Shown here: positions 8,831 to 12,369 of the stretch, piece by piece
Layout: each line of letters opens with the position of its first letter
Numbering within the stretch: the first letter of the stretch is position 1
Origin: Candidatus Heteroscillospira lomanii
GTDB lineage: Bacteria > Bacillota > Clostridia > Oscillospirales > Oscillospiraceae
DNA: 38,915 nucleotides
Direction: 5' to 3'
Assembly (NCBI GenBank): GCA_904419385.1
Contig: CAJFRI010000007.1
Location: 1-38,915 of the forward strand
Notes under the pieces: generated by a model
The model's input: only the letters and a program-made list of their open reading frames with translations
What the model was told of the DNA's origin: nothing
Database searches by the model: none
Translations under genes and position numbers: made by a program

Positions 8831-9967
8831 ATGCGTCTCGCGGCGAGGCTTGTAAAACTCAATATTTTCCGTCTCAGACGGCGGCTGTTGCTACTTGCGG
8901 CAATGGCCGCCGCCTTTGCCGTGCTCTCGGCGCCGCTGGGAGCCGGGGCGGAGAACATGCTCTCGCGTGAGTCGGTCGAGCCGCTCAGCATCGCCGTGTG
9001 CGGCGAGGAGGCTGGACTCATTTCGCGCCTCGCCGGGAACATGGCCGACATATCCGAATACTGCTCATTCATCGAGATGGACGAAACAGAGGCGCTTGAG
9101 GCACTCGGTTCCGGCGAGGTCACGGCCGTTCTGCTCCTGCCGGATGACTTCATCGGGAGCATACTCTCCGGAGCAAACGAGCCCGCGCTGCTCTACACAG
9201 ACCCGGACGAGCCCGTGGAGGGCATGCTCGTGCTCTATGCCGGGCGCAGCGCCGCAGATATGCTCTCGGCGGCTCAGGGCGGGATATACGCCGTGCTCGA
9301 CGAGCTGAGCAGGCAGGGCATAGAGCGCCCCGACGCCGTTATGGAGATAAACCTCGAGTATATCAAGTTCACGCTGTCACGCTCGGACATGTACCGCAGT
9401 GAGACCGTGAGCGCCGCCGGGACGATGCCGGTGGACGAGCACTATGCGCTCTCGCTGATGTGCTGGCTCATGCTGATGGCCGCCGTGATCTACCACCCGG
9501 TCATGCGCTCAGGCCAGGGCGCATGGCGCTCCCGGCTGCGCTCGGCCGGATGCTCCGGGGCCGTGTGGGCCGTTGGGGCTGCGGCGCCGGTGCTGCTCTG
9601 CTCGCTTGTGCTCACGGCGGCAGTGTGCGCCTTTTTCGGCAGCGTGACGGCGGGCGGCATTGTCAGCTGCGCCGTTTTCACCGCGGGCTTTTCGGCGCTG
9701 CTCTGCGCCCTGTGCCCGGAGGAGGGGACGGCTTCGGCCGTCATCTTCGCGGCGAGCTGCGCGCTCACGTTCCTGGCGGGCGGGATAATACCGCCGGCGC
9801 TCATGCCGGAGGAGCTCGCCTGGCTGGTGGACTCGTCGCCTGTCGGGGCGATGAGGCTTGCCATCACGGGCGAGGGCTCGTGGCTGCTGGCAGCGCTCGG
9901 AGCAGTGATGCTCGCCGCCGCGGGAGCGCTGTGTGCGGGGAGCTATGCGAGGGAGGCGGAGAGATGA
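8831..9967 (+). CDS. ABC-2-type transporter permease, first of a pair
   Basis: The 378-residue protein has a topology typical of ABC-2 or YhgE-like permeases: one membrane segment near residues 18-36, a large external domain (about 40-200) and a block of about five membrane segments from residue 205 to the end. The motif ALLYTDPDEP and the weak helix LLPDDFIGSIL in the external part match the general ABC-2 (PF12698-like) pattern. It begins one base after the lipoprotein stop and overlaps the next permease by four bases (ATGA), so the genes are translationally coupled. The substrate cannot be told from sequence. Confidence 0.75.
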   Translation: MRLAARLVKLNIFRLRRRLLLLAAMAAAFAVLSAPLGAGAENMLSRESVEPLSIAVCGEEAGLISRLAGNMADISEYCSFIEMDETEALEALGSGEVTAVLLLPDDFIGSILSGANEPALLYTDPDEPVEGMLVLYAGRSAADMLSAAQGGIYAVLDELSRQGIERPDAVMEINLEYIKFTLSRSDMYRSETVSAAGTMPVDEHYALSLMCWLMLMAAVIYHPVMRSGQGAWRSRLRSAGCSGAVWAVGAAAPVLLCSLVLTAAVCAFFGSVTAGGIVSCAVFTAGFSALLCALCPEEGTASAVIFAASCALTFLAGGIIPPALMPEELAWLVDSSPVGAMRLAITGEGSWLLAALGAVMLAAAGALCAGSYAREAER

Positions 9968-11037
9968 GGTTTTTCCTGAGAGCCGCCATGGCTGAGCTCA
10001 GCGCCGTGTGGCGCGGGAAACGGGCACTGGCCATGCTCATAGCGCTGCCCGTGTGCGTATGCCTCGTTTCTGTGATCGTGCCGGACGACGTGATGGAACC
10101 GGCGGTGCCGGTCGGCTGGGCGATGAGCGACGGCTGTGAGACCGGCAGGGAGCTGCTCGAGCACCTGCGCGAGACGGCCGGCGGAGTTGAATTTTTCGAG
10201 ACGGACGAGGCGACCCTGCGCCGCAAGGTGGCCTCGGGCGAATGGGAGTGCGGCTTTGTGCTGCGCGAGGATTTTGACGAGCGCGTCGCCGCCGGACGGT
10301 ACGGAAGGCTGTTCACGCTCGTGTTCGGAGAGGGCAGCACCATGCAGGGGCTGGTGAGCGAGGCAGTGTCGGCCGCGATGCTCGCTGTCGTCGCGCCGCA
10401 GATAGGCTCGGACTATCTTGAGAGCGTCGGCGCCGTGCCGCCCGAGGGCGGCTGGGAGCTCGAGCCGGGGAGCAGACTGGAGATAGAGCCTGCGTCCGGC
10501 GAGCCGGCGGGCAGCTATGTCTCGTCCGGGATCTCGCGCTCGCTGCTGCGCGGTTGCGCCGCCGTGCTGCTCACCGTGTCTGCCGTGTCGTTCGGAGACG
10601 AGCTCGCCCGCAGGCGGCGCGAGGGGTATTTCCGCCGGATTGCCGCCGTGCGCGGGGAGGCATCGGCGCTCCTGCCGGCGCTCGCCGTGCGCTTTGCGCT
10701 GAGTTTTGCAGCGGCGGCCGCCGCGCTGGCCGCCGCGGGGATATGGGAACCGGGGCTGGTCGCGGCGCTGTGCTTTGCGCTGACGGCGTTTGCCGCCGTG
10801 CTCTCGGTGTTCCCGGACGGATGGAGCGCCGCGGTCCTGCCGTTCCTCCCGGCGGCGATGCTCGTGCTGTGCCCGGTGCTGTTTGACGTGTCGGAATTCA
10901 TGCCGGCGCTCGGCAGGGCCGGCTCGCTGCTGGCCGCGACGCACTATCTGCGCGGCGATGTCCTGCCGCTCGTCATGCAGGGCTGTGTGTTCCTCGCGGC
11001 CGCGTGGCTGCTTGACAGGTGCTTTAAGAAAATTTAA
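9964..11037 (+). CDS. ABC-2-type transporter permease, second of a pair
   Basis: This is a 357-residue paralogue-like partner of the previous gene: an N-terminal membrane anchor (AMLIALPVCVCLVSVIVP), an external domain with WECGFVLREDFDERV resembling LLPDDFIG in its neighbour, then a block of membrane helices from about residue 190. The ATG at 9964 overlaps the previous stop. The ORF track extends it to 9460, but that part is a shadow of the first permease. Two unlike half-transporters plus one ATPase are a common heterodimeric ABC exporter arrangement. A hairpin ending in six T residues follows the stop. Confidence 0.75.
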   Translation: MRFFLRAAMAELSAVWRGKRALAMLIALPVCVCLVSVIVPDDVMEPAVPVGWAMSDGCETGRELLEHLRETAGGVEFFETDEATLRRKVASGEWECGFVLREDFDERVAAGRYGRLFTLVFGEGSTMQGLVSEAVSAAMLAVVAPQIGSDYLESVGAVPPEGGWELEPGSRLEIEPASGEPAGSYVSSGISRSLLRGCAAVLLTVSAVSFGDELARRRREGYFRRIAAVRGEASALLPALAVRFALSFAAAAAALAAAGIWEPGLVAALCFALTAFAAVLSVFPDGWSAAVLPFLPAAMLVLCPVLFDVSEFMPALGRAGSLLAATHYLRGDVLPLVMQGCVFLAAAWLLDRCFKKI

Positions 11038-11042
11038 TCTTT

Positions 11043-11115
11043 GCCCTCCTTGTTTCTTAATCGGGCTCGGGACTACACTGGTTGTGAGAGAAAAAGAAAC
11101 ACGGAGGGCTTTTTT
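11043..11115 (+). terminator. Long-range hairpin: terminator that also covers the next gene's SD
   Basis: GCCCTCCTTGTTTCT (11043-11057) pairs with AGAAACACGGAGGGC (11095-11109) at 14 of 15 positions and is followed by six T residues, ending at the ATG of the glycosyltransferase. In RNA read through from the ABC operon the hairpin would stop transcription and hide the GGAGGG SD. RNA starting from the internal promoter lacks the 5' arm. Confidence 0.6.
11050..11079 (+). promoter_or_regulatory. Promoter of the glycosyltransferase gene inside the hairpin
   Basis: TTGTTT (11050-11055) and TACACT (11074-11079) are 18 bases apart. The predicted start of RNA near 11086 lies in the hairpin loop. Confidence 0.45.
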
Positions 11116-12369
11116 ATGACGCCTGCAGAGATGCTGAAAATGGCCGGGGGCGCGATAGGCGCGCTGTTTTTCATATTTTACGCATACCAGGTCGTATACG
11201 CACTGGTGCCGCTGTTTGCAAAGGCACCGGCGCGCAGGGAGCCGGGGATGAGGCGCTATGCCGTGCTCATAGCGGCGAGGAACGAGGAGGCGGTCATAGC
11301 CAGGCTCATAGAGAGCATAAAAGATCAGGACTACCCGTCCGAGCTCGTGAGCATATTCGTCGTCGCGGACAACTGCACCGACTCGACCGCCGAGTGCGCC
11401 CGGAGAGCGGGGGCGGAGGTGTTTGAGCGCTTCGATAAAGTGCGCGCCGGCAAAGGCTATGCGCTGAGCTTCCTGCTGGCGCGGGTGCACGCCGAATACG
11501 GCAAGGAATTCGACGGATATTTCGTGTTCGATGCCGACAACCTGCTCGACAGCCGCTATATCGGCGAGATGGACAGGGCTTTCGGGCCCGACTGCCAGAT
11601 AGTCACGTCCTGCCGCAACTCGAAAAATTACGGCGACAGCTGGGTCTCAGCGGGAAATGCGCTGCGCTTTCTATACGACTCGGAGCTCCTCAACCGCCCG
11701 CGCATGCTGCTCGGAACGGCGTGCACCGTCGGCGGGACGGGCTTTCTCGTCGGGCGCGAGGCGCTCATGCGCGCGGGCGGATGGCGGTTTTTCCTCATGA
11801 GCGAGGACACGGAGTTCACCGTCAGCAGCGTGCTCGCCGGGGAAAAGATAGGCTATTGCCCGAGCGCCGTGTTCTACGACGAGCAGCCGGTGAGCTTTGC
11901 GCAGTCGTGGAGGCAGAGGCGGCGCTGGGTGCGCGGGTACATACAGGTGTTTGCCAAATACGGCGCACGCGCGCTCGCGTCGCTGAGGAACGGCGGGTTT
12001 GCGTGCTACGACGTGTGCATGTCGAACCTGCCGGCGATGCTGCTCTCGCTCGTGAGCGCCGCGTGCTATGTGCTCGCCGCGGCGGCGAGCCTGCTGCTCG
12101 GCGAGCCGCTCCGGCCCATACTCATGCTGGCGCTCGGCTCGTTTGCCGGGAGCTACCTCGGGGCGCTGAGTGTAGCGGTTTACATAACTATCACGAAATG
12201 GCGCATGATACACGCCGGCACCCTGAAAAAGATAATTTATATTTTTACCTTCCCCATATTCATGCTGACATATGTGCCCATCAGCGTCTCGGCGCTCTTC
12301 GGCGCGGCGGAGTGGCGCCCGATAGAACACAGGGCCGCCTGCTCGCTGCGCGAGGTGGTGCGGGGATGA
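11116..12369 (+). CDS. Family 2 glycosyltransferase, membrane-bound
   Basis: The 417-residue protein has one N-terminal membrane helix (about residues 10-30), a GT2 domain from about 50 to 300 and C-terminal membrane segments, as in processive or polyisoprenyl GT2 enzymes. Motifs seen: VLIAARNEEAVI, VVADNCTDSTAE, the DxD-like VFDADN, SEDTEFT and QRRRWVRGY, the last resembling the Q/RxxRW acceptor motif of processive transferases. The sugar and acceptor are unknown; a cell-envelope polysaccharide is likely. ATG 11116 follows GGAGGG with a 7-base gap; the ORF-track start at 11041 lacks a SD. A terminator-like hairpin follows. Confidence 0.88.
   Translation: MTPAEMLKMAGGAIGALFFIFYAYQVVYALVPLFAKAPARREPGMRRYAVLIAARNEEAVIARLIESIKDQDYPSELVSIFVVADNCTDSTAECARRAGAEVFERFDKVRAGKGYALSFLLARVHAEYGKEFDGYFVFDADNLLDSRYIGEMDRAFGPDCQIVTSCRNSKNYGDSWVSAGNALRFLYDSELLNRPRMLLGTACTVGGTGFLVGREALMRAGGWRFFLMSEDTEFTVSSVLAGEKIGYCPSAVFYDEQPVSFAQSWRQRRRWVRGYIQVFAKYGARALASLRNGGFACYDVCMSNLPAMLLSLVSAACYVLAAAASLLLGEPLRPILMLALGSFAGSYLGALSVAVYITITKWRMIHAGTLKKIIYIFTFPIFMLTYVPISVSALFGAAEWRPIEHRAACSLREVVRG

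Follow-up and report, generated by a model that had tools for sequence, protein, structure and literature searches.

A candidate fold-back translational insulator within a two-component-type promoter upstream of a glycosyltransferase gene in Candidatus Heteroscillospira lomanii

Introduction

In the fold-back inhibition of the insertion elements IS10 and IS50, read-through RNA hides the start of the transposase gene, which is not hidden in RNA made from the element's own promoter. In the lac operon, a hairpin formed by the operator covers the Shine-Dalgarno sequence (SD) of lacZ, only in RNA that comes from upstream. The leader of gene e (lysozyme) of phage T4 follows the same principle: a long RNA started upstream folds over the SD, with a reported repression of this RNA of about 100-fold, while the true promoter is located in the DNA that encodes the 5' strand of the helix, and the gene's own RNA lacks this strand and is translated (PMC3014915). 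The leaders of soc, 49 and I-TevI are similar to that of gene e (PMC3014915).

Here we describe a locus of Candidatus Heteroscillospira lomanii (Oscillospiraceae) in which an ABC operon is followed by a glycosyltransferase gene. The window, that is, the whole stretch of DNA that was analysed, covers 38,915 nucleotides (contig CAJFRI010000007.1, positions 1 to 38,915, forward strand), and the evidence is a sequence comparison, largely of draft or metagenome-assembled genomes. As in T4 gene e, a putative promoter lies within a hairpin and the SD would be covered in the long RNA. Unlike T4 gene e, the locus is on a bacterial chromosome and carries a two-component-type activator box rather than a phage late promoter; moreover, its 5' arm doubles as the operator, and the window genus adds a U tract. 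In IS10 and IS50 the helix is formed by the mobile element's terminal inverted repeat, whereas here it is made of operator and SD and belongs to a resident gene. The locus shares with lac an operator sequence beside the promoter that would fold with the SD only in upstream-started RNA, but the lac operator is a repressor palindrome, while in the window the box serves an activator and lies upstream of the start, and the other arm is the SD itself. Finally, the GC-rich hairpin and U tract behind the upstream gene recall an intrinsic terminator near a stop codon (PMC4824070), from which the window differs in that its loop of 35 nt holds the promoter and the element lies 5 nt from the stop.

Results

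A strong predicted hairpin covers the SD of the glycosyltransferase gene

The two flanking genes and the parts of the hairpin between them are as follows.

9964 to 11037, + strand: ABC-2-type permease-like gene, last of the ABC operon (open reading frame; congener orthologue, 59%; codon usage)
11043 to 11058, + strand: 5' arm of the hairpin, in the operator, GCCCTCCTTGTTTCTT (pairing, fold, congener identity)
11094 to 11109, + strand: 3' arm of the hairpin, AAGAAACACGGAGGGC (pairing, fold, duplex test)
11103 to 11108, + strand: SD GGAGGG, wholly in the 3' arm (sequence; anti-SD duplex of -10.0 kcal/mol)
11110 to 11115, + strand: run of six T (T6) from the SD stem to the ATG, the U tract of a possible intrinsic terminator (kept in the congener)
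11116 to 12369, + strand: GT2-family membrane glycosyltransferase gene (Pfam PF13641, 2.6e-27)

Genes for an ABC ATPase and an ABC-2-type permease are among those upstream, and the permease-like gene comes after them. It shares four bases (9964-9967) with the permease gene before it, and its product (9964-11037) matches no Pfam family over the cut-off. Against NCBIfam EpsU the glycosyltransferase scores 127 bits, below the cut-off of that family.

An earlier note on this DNA had described a 15-base arm after the ABC operon that pairs with an SD-containing stretch, with six T residues leading to the ATG. These coordinates hold. Positions 11043-11058 and 11094-11109 are paired at 15 of 16 positions around a loop of 35 nt, the outer stem (11043-11049/11103-11109) being GCCCTCC/GGAGGGC and the inner stem of 8 bp (11051-11058/11094-11101) being TGTTTCTT/AAGAAACA, with T11050/C11102 as the sole mismatch. 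The 3' arm contains the SD, and TTTTTT (11110-11115) separates it from the ATG (11116-11118). The minimum free energy of region 11033-11125 is -33.9 kcal/mol, compared with a mean of -20.3 (sd 3.0) for 200 dinucleotide shuffles, none of which folds as well (z -4.5).

We then relied on a duplex test, in which the DNA upstream of the predicted start is paired with the SD region and compared with dinucleotide shuffles of the upstream part. The promoter-to-SD duplex of the window reached -25.7 against a mean of -11.9 for 500 shuffles, and its p value of 0.002 is the limit of the test. In the predicted folds, the SD lies inside the helix of the long transcript, as in leaders of the T4 gene e type. 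The predicted unpaired share of the SD is 0.14 (14%) in read-through RNA and 57% in RNA from the gene's own promoter, so read-through RNA is expected to be poorly translated. However, the value of 0.14 is not unusual in the window species (shuffle mean 0.22, 18th percentile); the unusual feature of the window is the strength of the helix, not SD occlusion as such. Mean SD accessibility did not discriminate as a measure, and the duplex test with shuffles, together with a comparison of matched and mismatched pairs, was used instead. From the predicted start, the leader of the own transcript folds at chance level (z 0.22). An Rfam search of the element gave just a chance snoRNA match far below threshold and no family over the cut-off.

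The hairpin encloses a probable promoter with its operator box

The earlier note had placed a candidate promoter in the loop, and comparison with relatives supports this, through a conserved box architecture and a -10 element that is kept in the congener. The elements are listed below.

11023 to 11029, + strand: outermost operator half-site TTTAAGA, 10 bp to the next (CTTAAAC and 11 bp in the congener)
11033 to 11039, + strand: operator half-site TTTAATC, 23 bp to the next, like orthologues of other genera
11056 to 11062, + strand: operator half-site CTTAATC, at the place of the -35 (spacing pattern)
11074 to 11079, + strand: -10 element TACACT, in the hairpin loop (kept in the congener; matching -10 elements in orthologues of other genera)

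Spaced TTAA half-sites form an OmpR-type response-regulator box, and TACACT starts 11 nt past the last of them. In orthologues from many genera of the family, the layout consists of TTAA half-sites 11 and 23 bp apart, 10-13 nt and then the -10 element. Such a layout is that of an OmpR/PhoB-type activator box in place of a -35 element, and the window likewise has 11-bp-phased direct half-sites that end about 11 nt before the -10. The pattern of box and -10 occurs once in the window versus 0.01 expected. A simple sigma-70 promoter scan of the element found no promoter, presumably because the activator box replaces the -35.

From this layout we infer a transcription start at about 11086, in the loop. 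Since the predicted start is in the loop, the gene's own transcripts would lack the 5' arm; by sequence, the locus thus agrees with the T4 gene e type, in which the own promoter lies within the hairpin and its RNA is without the 5' strand. The 5' arm, previously proposed as a terminator arm, does pair but is not only that. Because the box architecture is conserved upstream of orthologous glycosyltransferases, the arm is also operator DNA, in an operator/-35 region that is conserved as such. The TAA of the permease-like gene (11035-11037) overlaps the operator.

The hairpin is weaker in the congener

One other species of the window genus (G001) was compared. Its gene order is the same, with 72% identity for the glycosyltransferase and 59% for the permease. 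A stretch of 35 bp (AAAATTTAATCTTTGCCCTCCTTGTTTCTTAATCG), which includes the 5' arm, is identical in the two species, and so are TACACT, GGAGGG, T6 and the ATG. Much of the loop and of the upper 3' arm has changed in G001, the upper stem is partly decayed, and the hairpin is weaker (fold z -1.65, duplex p 0.06-0.08). The T6 run behind the GC-rich base is common to both species.

SD cover by promoter DNA recurs in other genera

The duplex test was run on orthologues with a recognisable promoter. It is calibrated, since in the window genome 5.4% of 204 putative genes (from a crude gene caller) reach p<=0.05, and among these 204 there was no genome-wide tendency to SD cover. In the genus g21, 13 of the 14 promoter-bearing orthologues gave p values of 0.002-0.042, the exception being L066 (p 0.14); in this genus the 5' arm begins at the last half-site and spans the -10, and the 3' arm begins at the SD and ends at or near the base that precedes the ATG. 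Cover was also found in two further single species, L087 of g5 (p 0.042) and L081 of g85 (p 0.024), and in g102 leaders the -10 lies in the loop of a hairpin abutting the SD, weakly (p 0.09-0.16). Eleven regulator-gene promoters of the same architecture did not exceed expectation significantly: their combined p was 0.057, and one of them fell below 0.05.

Matched promoter and SD regions were compared with cross-genus pairs for 12 genera, species within a genus not being independent, and with g36 L008 among the 12 but not counted as support. Matched helices were stronger, with genus-level p values of 5e-4 for the spacer and 5e-5 for a wider region; within g21, matched pairs reached -24.0 and mismatched pairs -19.9 kcal/mol. 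Matched changes keep the helix across genera, and moderately in g21. Promoter DNA covers the SD independently in other genera, most strongly in g21. The register of the window helix differs from that of g21, which indicates that the window helix is convergent or shifted relative to it rather than the same element.

Upstream genes abut co-directionally in g1, g21, g5 and g102, and are divergent in g74, which is without cover. L081 is covered with a divergent neighbour, while L064 and L160 are co-directional yet without cover, so the orientation of the upstream gene was a suggestive but not a clean predictor. Such a promoter is missing from the glycosyltransferase of several genera, where the gene stands directly after a coding frame on the same strand, in an operon-like arrangement (L068, L004, L069, L070, L071, L075, L078 and L079). 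The g36 loci L008, L133 and L135 have long leaders downstream of the -10. Some leaders have an SD hairpin past the -10, which would fall within their own RNA; at L008, for instance, a strong hairpin over SD and ATG lies downstream of the -10 and may be part of the own transcript, a different kind of control.

The hairpin as a possible terminator

The earlier note had proposed that the two adjacent genes would be separated at two levels, RNA and translation. SD cover, on which the translational half depends, is well supported by the conserved promoter, the recurrent matched pairing and the control promoters without it. The terminator half draws only on T6 and the GC-rich base, present in both species of the genus, and has against it the congener fold (z -1.65), the long loop and the stop codon 5 nt away.

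The hairpin might instead be nothing but an intrinsic terminator of the ordinary kind, ending the ABC operon where intergenic space is short. Since CCTCC is present in the operator and GGAGG in any SD, the SD would then fall in the 3' arm by chance and any control of translation would be incidental. A GC-rich stem followed by a U tract (GCCCTCC/GGAGGGC, T6) is indeed present, the base and exactly T6 recur in both species of the genus, and 11037-11116 holds no other terminator-like sequence. Of the 204 putative genes of this genome, only two have a run of five or more T within 12 nt of the start, and in one of these two the called start follows an ordinary terminator. The 5' arm would be kept as operator DNA regardless of pairing, and SD occlusion as such is unremarkable. 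The hairpin begins 5 nt after the upstream stop codon, and in E. coli a terminator this near the stop is repressed by the trailing ribosome (PMC4824070); however, Bacillota are classed as runaway-transcription species (PMC13323073), so termination 5 nt past the stop is still plausible. On the other hand, the loop of 35 nt is long for an intrinsic terminator, and a terminator scan with loops of 3-8 nt did not report the element. A terminator also leaves unexplained the SD cover in g21, g5 and g85, where the covering relatives have no T run (T6 is found only in the window genus), as well as the excess of matched pairs and the 8-bp upper stem, which goes beyond SD and operator composition (duplex p 0.002). 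We therefore regard this explanation as unlikely, though not negligible.

RNA helix, DNA dyad or leader switch

In the g21 alignment, 89% of the helix cells pair, compared with 42-57% in slid controls. The covariation score was reached by 12 of 500 shuffles; only two of 12 pairs have changes on both sides, which 141 of 500 shuffles also reach. With the outermost pair and one misaligned row excluded, the cells comprise 90 Watson-Crick pairs, 17 G-U pairs and 3 that are neither, and the length of the element ranges from 51 to 56 nt. The inverted repeat could work as DNA, either as a second regulator site or as a dyad around the -10, with RNA folding as a by-product, and the inner arm of g21 does repeat, in inverted orientation, the -10 and part of the last half-site. 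However, G-U accounts for 17 of the 20 cells that are not Watson-Crick, the distance between the arms varies along with element length, the 3' arm is at the SD in every case, and the register differs among genera. The G-U excess over other cells and the variable length are easier to reconcile with an RNA helix than with a fixed DNA dyad, and we disfavoured the latter as very improbable. Given the own register of the window helix, the g21 covariation supports the principle and not this exact helix.

Attenuators and translational switches usually combine SD sequestration with a U tract. The hairpin, confirmed by folding, resembles this layout, but that it is a leader switch (attenuator, thermometer or riboswitch) in an own transcript started further upstream is scarcely to be expected, in view of the conserved -10 and activator box inside the hairpin, a loop sequence that is not conserved and the lack of any Rfam family over threshold.

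A VanR-like protein is the most likely regulator

In seven of nine genomes scanned for the box pattern, the box directly precedes the gene of a VanR-like regulator of the OmpR family (G000 L169, G001 L166, G021 L177, G254 L178, G361 L195, G447 L192 and G412 L187); the regulator is VanR-like with scores below the curated cut-off. In whole-genome counts, pattern matches did not exceed the reversed-pattern control in most genomes (5 vs 5 in G000), so the case for the regulator draws only on recurrence at the same gene. As would be expected of a VanR-like regulon, the box is found at the regulator's own gene in these seven of nine genomes, which suggests autoregulation and a small regulon that includes the glycosyltransferase.

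In the seven genomes, the box at the VanR-like regulator's own start has the form TTAA-N19-TTAA with a -10. The same box precedes a glycerophosphodiester phosphodiesterase-like gene (G000 L167, G000:C68:2063-2108), which is divergent from an apparent secreted protein gene and whose SD pairs only marginally with promoter DNA (p 0.04). The same spacing with TTTAAC-type half-sites is seen at pstS (G000 L043 and G001 L044, by inspection) and at a PhoB-like regulator gene; loci with boxes of this type are L043, L044, L191, L196, L200 and L179. There may be two paralogous regulators that read nearly one layout.

In the window species the glycosyltransferase half-sites are CTTAATC, which on visual comparison are closer to the VanR-like type; in g21 the picture is less clear, and the sites look closer to the Pho type. 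The Pho regulon was considered and set aside: its spacing fits, but the box of the window species resembles that of the VanR-like protein's own gene more closely. The protein that we infer to bind the box is most likely the VanR-like OmpR-family regulator.

Discussion

On balance we favour, with some reserve, a translational insulator of the fold-back kind that forms part of a promoter of the type controlled by two-component systems. Read-through RNA from the upstream ABC operon would include the promoter sequence, and its operator part would pair with the SD of the glycosyltransferase gene and block ribosome start. In the window genus, the GC-rich base and the six U would probably also terminate part of this RNA. 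A response regulator, most likely the VanR-like OmpR-family protein, would activate the promoter, and the own RNA, starting in the loop at about 11086 without the 5' arm, would leave the SD free. Against such an insulator stand SD occlusion at the 18th percentile, the partly decayed stem of the congener, L064 and L160 without cover, and the divergent neighbour of L081. Taken together, the comparative evidence supports a fold-back insulator like that of T4 gene e under selection. The chances are a little short of even that glycosyltransferase promoters across the family repeatedly evolve complementarity of the activator box and -10 to the SD, the window genus having turned it also into a terminator of the upstream operon.

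If that is so, the same DNA would serve as operator, promoter and anti-SD of the read-through RNA. There would then be a class of chromosomal, two-component-linked fold-back insulators, with promoters that abut upstream genes without separate terminators, and thus a compact means of separating adjacent genes without a terminator. Gene-by-gene annotation takes RNA from a neighbour that carries an SD as translated, whereas a conserved fold-back insulator would mean that read-through RNA-seq coverage here does not equal protein. Phage T4 provides a documented example of the principle; its recurrence on bacterial chromosomes, linked to a two-component-type box, would be a directly testable case, with natural replicates with and without SD cover among the relatives.
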